This document shows, piece after piece, positions 3,834 to 10,950 of a DNA stretch of 38,059 nucleotides. Under the pieces are notes generated by a model. That model worked only from the letters and a program-made list of their open reading frames with translations, was not told where the DNA came from and searched no databases. Source of the stretch: Nitrospirota bacterium (lineage in GTDB: Bacteria > Nitrospirota > Nitrospiria > Nitrospirales > Nitrospiraceae); assembly GCA_005887945.1 (NCBI GenBank), contig VBOL01000018.1, forward strand, positions 1 through 38,059, given 5' to 3'. A program made the translations under genes and the position numbers. Each line of letters begins with the position of its first letter. Position 1 is the stretch's first letter.

Positions 3834-4008
3834 GTCTTGTAGAGTGCTTGGACGATTGCGTTGTATTAAAGAGCATCGCGCTCAGGCTGGCGTCGACGGC
3901 ATAGTCGATCTCGTTTCTACATCGCTGTTCGAGTTAACGCCACACATTCAGTGAATCCCCCCTCGTAATTCGCCGCTCCCATCTATAGACATTTTGCACC
4001 CGACCCCC

Positions 4009-4037
4009 TTGACAGCCCTTACCATGGTATGTAACAT
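4009..4037 (+). promoter_or_regulatory. sigma70-type promoter TTGACA-N17-TAACAT
   Basis: TTGACA at 4009-4014, TAACAT at 4032-4037, exact 17-bp spacer, directly upstream of the ATG at 4046. Confidence 0.7.
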
Positions 4038-4047
4038 TTTGTGACAT
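4029..4047. promoter_or_regulatory. candidate operator: inverted repeat ATGTAACA-TTT-TGTGACAT
   Basis: 8-3-8 inverted repeat with 7/8 arm matches, overlapping the -10 box and start codon of the XRE-S24 regulator. Confidence 0.5.
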
Positions 4048-4591
4048 GACGGCCAAACAGTTCAGGCAGGCGCGGGTTCGGTTGGGGTACACGCAGGCGA
4101 AGTTGGCGGAGGTGCTGCAACTGAGCCGGATGACGATCAGCCGCTATGAGGCCGGCAGGTGGGAGGTTCCTTTGTCGGTCGAGATGGCGCTGGACCAGTT
4201 GGGGTCGTCACAGATTCCTATGTTGGGGATGGTGGCGGCCGGGGCGCCGATCGAACCGATTACGCAAGCTGAATTGGTGGCGGTGCTGCCGCCGTTGTTG
4301 CGCAGGGGAGAGACCTTCGCGCTACGGGTGAAAGGCGAGTCGATGAAGGACGACGGCATTTTCCCCGGCGATTTGGTGGTGGTGCGGAAGCAGGGTACCG
4401 CGCGGAATGGGCAGACGGTGGTGGCCTTAGTCAACAATGAAGCTACGATCAAGAAGTACTACCGCAAGGACGGTCGGATTGAACTGCATCCGGCGAATGC
4501 AGCGATGAAGCCGATCATCGTGTCGTCACAGGACGAGTTTTGTATTCAGGGAATTGTCGCGGGGGTGATTCGCCACTTCAACGAATCGTGA
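4046..4591 (+). CDS. XRE-family HTH / S24 (LexA-like) peptidase-domain regulator
   Basis: N-terminal HTH (RLGYTQAKLAEVLQLSRMTISRYEAGRWEVP), C-terminal S24 fold (MLGMVAAGAP...FALRVKGESMKDDGIFPGDLVVVRK...VVALVNNEATIKKYYR). Confidence 0.9.
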   Translation: MTAKQFRQARVRLGYTQAKLAEVLQLSRMTISRYEAGRWEVPLSVEMALDQLGSSQIPMLGMVAAGAPIEPITQAELVAVLPPLLRRGETFALRVKGESMKDDGIFPGDLVVVRKQGTARNGQTVVALVNNEATIKKYYRKDGRIELHPANAAMKPIIVSSQDEFCIQGIVAGVIRHFNES

Positions 4592-4599
4592 GGTGTTCT

Positions 4600-5310
4600 A
4601 TGGCTCTGGTGCAGCAACAGGCGATTGAGTTTTTGTTTCGCACAGAAGATGGCGGCGCGGTCATCGATGCGCCTCGCCATCTGCTGGCGGCGTTACGGCA
4701 GAGTGCGGTGTCGACCGATCAGCCGAAGGGGTTGGTGCTATTGTCCGGACCGCCGTCGGTCTATCGACTGGGCCTCTGTGCCGCGGTCGATCGCGCGTTG
4801 GCCGGCGAACCGGTGCTGTATCTGGCCGGCGCCAATGTCTTCGACCCATTCTTGGTGGGGCGGCTGGCTCGGGCAAGTCGGGTGGCGTCAGCTCAGGTGC
4901 TGCAACAGATTCACGTCTCACGGGCCTTCACCTGTCATCAGATGGTCCGGTTGGTCACGGATTGTCTCCTGTCGGCGTTGCGCACCTATGATGCGCGATT
5001 CGTCATTCTCGCCGGTCCGCTCGACACGTTGTACGATCAGTCGGTGCCGGAGCCTGAAGCGATGCGCCTCTTTCGTACCATGACAGAGGCCCTGCAGGAC
5101 ATGGCCTACCAGGGTGTGCAGGTGCTGTGCGTGAGCCCGCTCGCGCCGCCTGAATCCGGCGGACGCAGCCGATTTATGGCGGCACTCCGTGCGCAGGCGC
5201 GCCGGGCGATCGATGTGTGCGAGGCCGAGGACGGACTGTGGCTCCATGAAGAGGGAGGGCCTGAGCCCAAACGCTGGATGATTCCGCGTCCGCTCTGGAA
5301 TCGGTTGTAA
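4600..5310 (+). CDS. RadA/RecA-like (ImuA-analogous) protein with degenerate Walker A
   Basis: P-loop position reads LLSGPPSVYRLGL instead of GPPGSGKT; Rad51/RadA-like 'VLQQIHVSRAFTCHQMVRLV', Walker-B-like strand 'ARFVILAGPLDTLYD'; 8 bp after the regulator stop. Confidence 0.65.
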   Translation: MALVQQQAIEFLFRTEDGGAVIDAPRHLLAALRQSAVSTDQPKGLVLLSGPPSVYRLGLCAAVDRALAGEPVLYLAGANVFDPFLVGRLARASRVASAQVLQQIHVSRAFTCHQMVRLVTDCLLSALRTYDARFVILAGPLDTLYDQSVPEPEAMRLFRTMTEALQDMAYQGVQVLCVSPLAPPESGGRSRFMAALRAQARRAIDVCEAEDGLWLHEEGGPEPKRWMIPRPLWNRL

Positions 5311-5312
5311 GC

Positions 5313-5603
5313 ATGGGGCGCACGCTTGCCACGTTCACGCAATTGGTCCAGCAGGAAATCGATTCGTGGAGCCGCTACCGGCGTGCATTGCGGCGTGAGG
5401 ATCAGCAGGCGCTCGATGTGTTGTTCGCCGCCGCCCGCCACCATGCGTCCGCCGGCGCCTATCTTGCGCGTGAGACACCGTTCGAAGTGATGCTGCTGTC
5501 CATGTTAATCGAACAACAGAAACACGTCGTCACGTTGCAACAGAAAGTGATGACTCTTGAAACCCGCATGCACCACGACTCGACTCAAGGGATGGCTTCT
5601 TGA
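5313..5603 (+). CDS. small helical protein in PolB cassette
   Basis: 96-aa ORF, starts 2 bp after upstream stop, overlaps PolB start; 'EIDSWSRYRRALRREDQQALDVLFAAARHHASA...LLSMLIEQQKHVVTLQQKV'. Confidence 0.75.
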   Translation: MGRTLATFTQLVQQEIDSWSRYRRALRREDQQALDVLFAAARHHASAGAYLARETPFEVMLLSMLIEQQKHVVTLQQKVMTLETRMHHDSTQGMAS

Positions 5604-7800
5604 TGTCTACCCGGCACAAGAGGGCATGGTCGTCTGGCTCGTCGGCGAGGACGGTCGCCGCATCAGAGCCATCGATCCCTTTGTGCCGACGTGCTATCTG
5701 GCGGCTCCGCCGTCCATCCGCGAGCACGTGTTCAGGTTACTCCGCCGTGCCTCCTGTCGTATCAGCACCAGAGAGGTAGAGCGATATGAACTTGGCGCGC
5801 CTTGTCCGATCTCGGTGCTGGAAGTTTCGGTTCACGCTCCCGCGCAGTTCTCGTCCCTCACGCAACATCTGATCCGCGCCTGTCCCGACGCGCAGTTCTT
5901 TCACGTGGATGTGTCCCTGCCGCAGCGCTACTTCTACGACCGGGAACTCTTCCCTCTGGTCCATTGCGAGGCTGACCTTACAGCCGAAGGCCGGATTCAG
6001 TCGATTCAGGCGCTGGAGTCGCCCTGGGACACGGACTATGGTTTCCCACCGCTCACGATCATGGAGCTGTCGCCGGACAGTCCGTCGCCCAACCCGAATC
6101 ATGGCGGGCATGGCTCGTTCGTGGTGCGGATGGATGGGGAGGAGCGTCTGTTGGAAGGCGATGATGCTGACGTAATCCAGCGCCTCAACCAGCTGCTCGT
6201 GCGACAGGACCCCGATATTCTATTAACGGACTGGGGCGATTCCTATCTTCTGCCGCGTCTCATGATCATGGCGGATCAGCTGCGCATGCCGCTCGAGCTC
6301 AATCGCGATCCCCATCGATCCATCGGCACCAGGAAACCCCGTTCGTATTTTTCATACGGCCGTATCCTGTCCCATGCTGGTGCCCGTATTCTGTCGGGAC
6401 GGTTGCATCTCGATCGGCACAATTCCTTTGCGCTGGCGGAAACGGGCCTGGCCGGTCTCATCGAGCAGGCCCGTATCGCGAAGGTCGATTTGCAGCAGAT
6501 GGCCCGCACGACGACAGGGACGGGGATCACCTCAATGCAGCTCGAAACGGCTTGTCGCGACGGTCTGTTGATTCCCTATCGGAAACAGGAGCCGGAAGCC
6601 TTCAAATCCGCGCGCGAGTTGCTGCAGACCGATCAGGGCGGATTGGTATTTGCGCCGATCGTCGGCTATCACGAGCAGGTCGGTGAGCTGGATTTCTCTT
6701 CTATGTATCCCTCCATCATGGTGCGCTTCAACATCTCGCCCGAAACGATCAATTGCCCGTGCTGCCGCGATGAGCCGGCCGCACGGGTGCCGGAGATCGG
6801 CCATCACACCTGCCGCCATCGCCAGGGATTGGTGCCTCGCACGCTGGCCCCGTTGCTCGACAAGCGCGTGCGGTACAAACGGCTCATGGCCGCGGCGACA
6901 CAGCCGGCGGCGAGGGCCGTGCTCGATCAACGGCAAACGGCGCTCAAGTGGCTGCTCGTCGTCTCGTTCGGTTATTTGGGGTACAAGAATGCCCGGTTCG
7001 GCCGGATCGAAGCACACGAATCCGTGACCGCCTACAGCCGTGATCTGCTGCTGCAGGCCAAGGAGGTTGCCGAGCGGCAGGGCTATCGCATGCTGCATGC
7101 GATTGTGGATTCGCTCTGGTTCGTCAAACCCGGCGCAGTCAGGGCAGACTACAACAGACTTGCGCAGGAGATCACCGAGCGGACGGGGCTCTCGATCGGC
7201 CTGGAAGGGCTCTATCACTGGATTGGGTTTCTTCCGTCACGGGTCAATCCGCTCATGCCGGTGCCGAATCAGTTCGTGGGCCTGTTTGACCATGGAGCCA
7301 TGAAAATCCGCGGCATCGAAATCCGTCGCAGCGATGCGCCGTTTCTCGTCAAACGGGCACAGGCGGAGGTGCTGCGCTGTCTGAGTCAGGCACGGATGCT
7401 GGCCGAGTTGCGTGAACAGATTCCTCAGGCATTGGAGATTGTCCGTATCTATCGGCGCTATCTCCACGATGGTCACGCCACCGTTGAGGAACTGGCCATT
7501 ACCAAATCCCTCTCGAAAGAGCCGCAGGCCTATCGCCATCAGACCTTGTCGATGATTGCGGCGCAGGAACTGCTCGCGCGCGGCGTGTCGCTCCAAGCCG
7601 GCGACACGATTCACTACATCATTACGGATGCCGACGCGGCTTATCTGCCAGACCGGGCGCGTGCGGTGGCCGGACTCGATGGGACCTGGAGCTACGATGT
7701 CTCGGCCTATGACAGCCTGCTTTTGAAGGCGGCCCTCGTGCTGTTGACGCCCTTGGGCGTGACGGCGACCTCGTTGAACGAATCTACTGCAGGATGCTAA
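5557..7800 (+). CDS. divergent family-B DNA polymerase (PolB2-like), TTG start
   Basis: Motif A 'LDFSSMYPSIM', motif-B region 'KWLLVVSFGYLGYKNARFG', motif C 'HAIVDSLWF', 'GLVPRTLAPLLDKRVRYK'; exonuclease motif positions degenerate. Confidence 0.88.
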   Translation: MKPACTTTRLKGWLLDVYPAQEGMVVWLVGEDGRRIRAIDPFVPTCYLAAPPSIREHVFRLLRRASCRISTREVERYELGAPCPISVLEVSVHAPAQFSSLTQHLIRACPDAQFFHVDVSLPQRYFYDRELFPLVHCEADLTAEGRIQSIQALESPWDTDYGFPPLTIMELSPDSPSPNPNHGGHGSFVVRMDGEERLLEGDDADVIQRLNQLLVRQDPDILLTDWGDSYLLPRLMIMADQLRMPLELNRDPHRSIGTRKPRSYFSYGRILSHAGARILSGRLHLDRHNSFALAETGLAGLIEQARIAKVDLQQMARTTTGTGITSMQLETACRDGLLIPYRKQEPEAFKSARELLQTDQGGLVFAPIVGYHEQVGELDFSSMYPSIMVRFNISPETINCPCCRDEPAARVPEIGHHTCRHRQGLVPRTLAPLLDKRVRYKRLMAAATQPAARAVLDQRQTALKWLLVVSFGYLGYKNARFGRIEAHESVTAYSRDLLLQAKEVAERQGYRMLHAIVDSLWFVKPGAVRADYNRLAQEITERTGLSIGLEGLYHWIGFLPSRVNPLMPVPNQFVGLFDHGAMKIRGIEIRRSDAPFLVKRAQAEVLRCLSQARMLAELREQIPQALEIVRIYRRYLHDGHATVEELAITKSLSKEPQAYRHQTLSMIAAQELLARGVSLQAGDTIHYIITDADAAYLPDRARAVAGLDGTWSYDVSAYDSLLLKAALVLLTPLGVTATSLNESTAGC

Positions 7801-7912
7801 AAAAGTCCGCCAGCATCGTTCTCGCATCGCTCAGAGACTCAACGTACCGAAGCGTACGCCTCGCCTCCTCGCTCGCTGCGGCCTTGCTGGACGGTCTTTT
7901 TGAGCATCCTGC
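7789..7912. repeat. TIR intergenic element, family 1 (copy A)
   Basis: GCAGGATGCTAAAAAAGTCCGCCAGCA ... TGCTGGACGGTCTTTTTGAGCATCCTGC; left arm contains the PolB stop codon. Confidence 0.8.
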
Positions 7913-10579: not shown

Positions 10580-10660
10580 GTCGTGTTGAAAGCTGTTTTC
10601 GATCGGCATGGGGGAATTACATATCCGATGTTGGTGATGGACTGCAACGGAGGATTAGCC

Positions 10661-10864
10661 GGATGCTGAAAAAGTCACTTTTCTCACCCGCCCAACCCTG
10701 GCGCGCCGAGACGCGCCTTTCACCAAGCATCGTTCTCGTTTCGTTCTCAAGTACCGTGAAGGGTAAGATGTGAAGGGTAAGACGTAGGACTGCCGAGTGT
10801 TCTTGCTCCGAAACATTTCACGTTTAACGATTCACGGATCGCTGGTCGGCCTTTTTGAGCATCC
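10661..10864. repeat. TIR intergenic element, family 1 (copy C)
   Basis: GGATGCTGAAAAAGTC ... GGCCTTTTTGAGCATCC. Confidence 0.75.
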
Positions 10865-10950
10865 TCATGCTCCTCTGGTACCAGCACCATACTAGGATTC
10901 CAACGGTATATAAACCGAGCTTTTCTGCAGCCTGTCATAGGGAAAATTGT

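Follow-up and report, generated by a model that had tools for sequence, protein, structure and literature searches.

A bacterial PolB2 (group G2) DNA polymerase and its LexA-led cassette in a Nitrospirota genome

The window analysed here, a stretch of 38,059 nucleotides from a Nitrospirota bacterium, carries at 5557..7800 (+ strand) an open reading frame of 747 amino acids with a TTG start. Its product belongs to an already described family, PolB2 (Dpo2 in archaea, group G2 in bacteria), and is very probably the catalytic subunit of a mutasome for translesion synthesis of the bacterial PolB2 (G2) type, which would be repressed by LexA, expressed upon damage and able to extend DNA past lesions without proofreading. 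Both the polymerase family and the cassette type are already known from Leptospirillum and other bacteria.

The assignment to PolB2 draws on profile matches, archaeal relatives, the predicted fold and phylogeny. The open reading frame matches Pfam DNA_pol_B (8.9e-40) and PRK05761, 'type B DNA-directed DNA polymerase' (2.9e-118, which is under that model's cut-off), and its closest solved structures are archaeal PolBs such as 5mdn (6.5e-53). In a maximum-likelihood tree, midpoint-rooted and accompanied by a program warning of long branches, the window protein groups with proteins of Nitrospirota and Chloroflexota; this bacterial clade lies next to the haloarchaeal PolB2s, and two Pol II-like enzymes of the phylum (G116 and G162) stand away from it. 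The eight haloarchaeal plasmid PolB2s share 29-33% identity with the window protein. Bacterial group G2 was described in 2020 as nested in archaeal B2 and as having a single aspartate in motif C (PMC7544198). A PADLOC match to a 'homing endonuclease' was rejected, as it covers C-terminal polymerase sequence only and reflects a shared PolB domain, not function.

An earlier note on this DNA had proposed that the polymerase has rewritten motifs B and C and has lost its exonuclease motifs while keeping key aspartates, and all motif strings that it quoted are present in the translation. Conservation was assessed across 32 aligned bacterial proteins, the window's included, and the eight haloarchaeal plasmid proteins, and the alignment with 5mdn served as the reference for canonical positions. 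Motif A (ELDFSSMYPSIM, with DFSSMYP; 6685..6720, +) does keep its catalytic aspartate: Asp379 falls on the motif A aspartate of 5mdn and is invariant in the bacterial (32/32) and haloarchaeal sets. The reading of motif C also stood, in that HAIVDSLW (7096..7119, +) aligns with YGDTDSLF, Ile516 taking the place of the first aspartate and Asp518 matching the second; His514, Val517 and Asp518 are present in every bacterial protein. Motif B (KWLLVVSFGYLG; 6946..6981, +), where the window's PolB2 reads KWLLVVSFGYLGY, proved to be rewritten in part: the asparagine (now Val468) and the tyrosine hydroxyl are gone, but Lys464 and Phe471-Gly472 still align with the canonical lysine and Tyr-Gly. Val468, Phe471 and Gly472 are invariant in the 32 bacterial proteins, as are Arg437, Lys441 and Trp465, and Lys464 is a lysine in 31 of them. 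The haloarchaeal proteins carry these signature residues too; any departure is confined to Val517 and is conservative.

Loss of the exonuclease motifs was borne out for Exo I and Exo II. The catalytic aspartate is absent from the Exo I region (LTIMELSP; 6052..6075, +), where a glutamate (E170) occupies that place in only 16 of the 32 proteins, and in the Exo II region (TDWGDSYLLP; 6226..6255, +) its position is taken by a leucine, the aspartate of 'GDS' not being the catalytic one. Exo III is uncertain, since D286 aligns with D336 of 5mdn at the Exo III position and is invariant. As a control, the same two Pol II-like polymerases (G116 and G162) retain YADTDS or YGDTDS together with NASYG. Because all 32 bacterial PolB2s carry the signature unchanged while these enzymes keep the canonical motifs, the alterations are not due to chance; judged from the alignments, the rewritten motifs are a PolB2 family signature and not private mutations. 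This removes a false lead, namely that the altered motifs might be evidence of a new polymerase type.

AlphaFold2 with the 32-sequence alignment predicted the structure of PolB2 with a pLDDT of 90.0 and a pTM of 0.88; a prediction based on four sequences (pLDDT 48) was set aside. Foldseek matched the model to 4k8x (E 1.4e-42), and VIA-align matched it to the 9N ternary complex 5omq with Z 27.0 over 653 aligned residues (rmsd 3.9 Å). The fold is predicted with high confidence, and the model matches replicative archaeal B-family polymerases end to end. The earlier note had named superposition on RB69 or an archaeal PolB as a check, and agreement is found at the level of overall fold and sequence alignment. 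In pairwise comparisons with five relatives, dN/dS was 0.14-0.18 for polB2, 0.18-0.26 for iRadA, 0.07-0.12 for PPB2 and 0.05-0.11 for lexA; polB2 is under purifying selection, with dN/dS about 0.15.

These data bear on the question of whether PolB2 is an enzyme at all. The family was first interpreted as inactivated (PMC4104785), and in line with this the protein could be a catalytically dead PolB acting solely as a structural or regulatory subunit; the first motif C aspartate, the asparagine and tyrosine of motif B and the exonuclease aspartates are all replaced. We consider this unlikely, as Asp379, Asp518, Arg437 and Lys441 show no variation and all but one of the 32 proteins have Lys464, and as Sulfolobus Dpo2 is a robust polymerase despite the same substitutions in motif C. 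Dpo2 of S. islandicus was described in 2022 as an active, robust and distributive extender polymerase with no detectable exonuclease (PMC8764526). The earlier proposal of a proofreading-deficient polymerase, as opposed to a dead remnant, is therefore supported by the two invariant aspartates, the full predicted fold, purifying selection and the Dpo2 precedent. By analogy with Dpo2, the window's PolB2 is probably active as a polymerase. A search of PMC4104785, PMC7544198, PMC8764526 and PMC11791011 for biochemical data on any bacterial PolB2 found none. With the Nitrospirota loci, PolB2 mutasomes from mesophilic bacteria become available; they may express more readily than Sulfolobus Dpo2, a protein that aggregated in E. 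coli (PMC8764526), and would suit experiments on whether one motif C aspartate suffices for catalysis.

PolB2 is encoded by the last gene of a cassette in the order lexA-iRadA-PPB2-polB2, all on the + strand. The first gene (4046..4591) encodes a LexA-like repressor of 181 amino acids with an XRE-type HTH (Pfam HTH_3, 1.2e-8) and an S24 autoprotease domain (Peptidase_S24, 5.4e-30); the NCBIfam lexA model matches it with 126 bits, above its cut-off, and covers the C-terminal part only. It is followed by iRadA (4600..5310; 236 amino acids), a RadA/Rad51-like protein assigned by profile, position and conservation. The iRadA family profile matches RadA structures (4.5e-11), and a search of the window's iRadA sequence for Walker A (GxxxxGK[ST]) found none. 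PPB2 (5313..5603; 96 amino acids, arCOG07300-like) begins MGRTLATF and is recognised by this MGRT N-terminus and by a match, at profile level, to PPB2s that adjoin polB2 in archaea and bacteria; its end overlaps the start of polB2 by 47 nt. No beta-clamp motif was recognised by eye at the C-termini of the window's iRadA and PolB2, and the published clamp-motif search was confined to regions near the C-termini (PMC11791011). The iRadA of another locus (L094) has the N-terminus MADPSSQSSLFE, which resembles a QxxLF-like sliding-clamp motif.

The gene order is widely shared. The polymerase occurs in 12 of the 61 nearest genomes, and all loci not cut by a contig end contain the four genes in the same order. 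At 18 more distant Nitrospirota polB2 loci, lexA is present in 15 and separate iRadA and PPB2 genes in 14; in two loci (L103 and L104) iRadA and PPB2 are fused, and one (L107) has none of lexA, iRadA and PPB2. Haloarchaeal loci have the order iRadA-PPB2-polB2, in most cases with a Cdc6 gene nearby, and one (L058) lacks the partners. Leptospirillum ferriphilum also belongs to Nitrospirota. Its genes LFML04_0990-0993 were described in 2014 as lexA, an inactivated radA, arCOG07300/PPB2 and an 'inactivated' polymerase (PMC4104785), that is, the same four genes as in the window. The window's LexA has an XRE-type HTH and its own putative operator.

Work from 2025 named PPB2 and iRadA, reported that lexA is enriched near bacterial polB2, and modelled the mutasome as a heteropentamer for 40 other complexes (PMC11791011). 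Candidate contact sites are present in the window's PolB2. The sequence F-K-S-A (residues 349-352; 6601..6612, +) is an FxxA-like candidate iRadA-binding motif, with Phe349 conserved in 32/32 proteins, and corresponds to the type of interaction predicted in PMC11791011. As expected from that Rad51-like contact model, it stands ahead of the family D(K/R) motif position (Asp359-Gln360; 6631..6636, +), where Asp359 is found in all 32 bacterial proteins and the second residue is Lys in 17, Gln in 13, including the window's, and Arg in two.

The analysis itself establishes membership of the family, conservation of the motifs, the predicted fold, the cassette, the selection acting on it and the conserved promoter/operator. 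From homologues and published models we infer polymerase activity, the absence of exonuclease activity, the formation of a complex and induction by damage, and propose the following sequence of events. In undamaged cells the LexA-like repressor would occupy an operator overlapping the promoter and the lexA start codon, and upon DNA damage it would cleave itself and permit expression of lexA-iRadA-PPB2-polB2. PolB2 would be held to iRadA, a RadA-like protein that lacks an ATPase site, via the FxxA-like motif, and to PPB2 via the MGRT arm of the latter. With Asp379 and Asp518 holding the metals, it would extend distorted or mismatched primer ends beyond lesions, and no proofreading would remove the inserted base.

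Like archaeal PolB2/Dpo2 (PMC8764526, PMC11791011), the window's polymerase has an HxxxD motif C with Ile for the first aspartate and the second retained, an exonuclease active site lost as judged on Exo I and Exo II, and an operon with iRadA and PPB2. In contrast to the archaeal proteins, it is bacterial and longer (Sulfolobus Dpo2 was described as the smallest PolB2), its cassette is led by LexA where the archaeal ones are associated with Orc1/Cdc6, and it has DQ in place of DK or DR. The E. coli Pol V mutasome (UmuC-UmuD'2-RecA) and ImuA-ImuB-DnaE2 are, as proposed here for the window's system, damage-response cassettes that unite a polymerase with a partner of the RecA fold and an accessory protein of small size. 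The window's polymerase, however, belongs to the B-family and not to the Y- or C-family, iRadA is Rad51/RadA-like, and PPB2 is small and helical, with a fold that has been called unrelated to that of UmuD'.

A Pol II-like SOS polymerase working as a single subunit, with no need of partners, would account for the B-family fold, the adjoining LexA and the match of the model to E. coli Pol II (Z 25.0), which is itself B-family and SOS-linked. At one locus (L100, in G227) lexA lies directly before polB2, and iRadA and PPB2 were not found within 10 kb. Pol II, however, works as a single subunit whose exonuclease is active and whose motif C is canonical, and neither YxDTDS nor the Exo I and Exo II aspartates are present in the window's PolB2. 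Since the protein also belongs to a clade distinct from the Pol II-like enzymes of the phylum, since partner genes adjoin polB2 at nearly all loci and since the FxxA-like and D(K/R/Q) motifs are retained, we regard a partner-free enzyme as very improbable and favour the PolB2 mutasome.

With respect to regulation of this mutasome, a sigma-70-type promoter precedes lexA (4009..4037, +; TTGACA at 4009-4014, a 17-bp spacer and TAACAT at 4032-4037) and is kept in 8/8 close relatives. The putative repressor operator, the 17-bp sequence TGTAACATTTTGTGACA (4030..4046, no strand assigned), overlaps the -10 element and reaches one base into the lexA start codon. It is the sole match in the window at up to one mismatch (0.02 expected) and the sole perfect match in the genome. 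The promoter and ATGTAACATTTTGTGAC(A) are conserved in 8/8 close loci and the DNA upstream diverges; one locus (L022) differs by one base in the promoter/operator stretch, and another (L017) has a GTG start. A search of the genome for a wider TGTAACATTTTGTGACA regulon returned two one-mismatch sites (L028 and L029), which we treat as chance because the reversed control gives about as many.

The window's LexA contains S24 but has HTH_3/XRE instead of the LexA_DNA_bind winged helix, whereas the LexAs of other Nitrospirota cassettes have LexA_DNA_bind and different palindromes near the lexA start. Because the XRE-type HTH differs from that of canonical LexA, control by the SOS signal is something that we infer for this repressor. 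A second S24 protein of the genome is also of the XRE type, and TGTAACCATCGGTTACA stands at the start of its gene, a site of the type also present in the G143 and G237 cassettes; TGTAACCATCGGTTACA sites beyond this repressor's own gene were likewise at chance level. One genome thus holds two XRE-type LexA paralogues with different putative autoregulatory palindromes, TGTAACATTTTGTGACA and TGTAACCATCGGTTACA (window 4030-4046; L033 near 6881; L092 and L093).

Occurrence of polB2 is patchy: in a sample of 395 genomes from the phylum, 60 match the polymerase, with some canonical PolBs counted in. Six of seven same-genus genomes without polB2 keep polA and the downstream genes that flank the window's cassette region. 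Homology among cassette-bearing genomes extends in most pairs from the promoter (window position 4004) to near the polB2 stop, and at one locus (L020, in G028), sited elsewhere than the window's polA neighbourhood, the cassette alone matches. This suggests that the cassette moves as a unit, being present or absent whole. The PolB2 mutasome of Nitrospira and its nearest relatives may be a self-contained moving damage-tolerance module whose own XRE-type LexA and operator travel along, apart from the second XRE-type LexA, a tentative reading to which we give slightly less than even weight. If it is true, mutagenic repair would be under control separate from that of any broader SOS response. Neither the repressor swap nor the unit-like presence and absence was found in the main texts of PMC4104785, PMC7544198, PMC8764526 and PMC11791011, and the swap provides a specific example, open to experiment, of a mutagenesis cassette that exchanges its regulator.

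In some relatives polB2 is broken or fragmentary, with an internal TAG in one copy (L023, in G005) and fragments in G160, G171 and G290, which indicates that the function is dispensable. That the window's gene is itself such a copy, a private and recent loss of function decaying in this genome, has next to no probability, as its open reading frame is intact, dN/dS is low against five relatives and the substitutions are family-wide, with the same motifs in archaea and bacteria largely refuting it. An interspersed palindromic element with arms GCAGGATGCTNAAAAAGNCCGNCCAGC lies at 7789-7912 of the window, with a second copy at 10658-10867, and its left arm holds the polB2 stop codon, so that the last PolB2 residues come from the element. 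The arms have 48 matches in the genome at up to two mismatches, compared with 0 for the reversed control.
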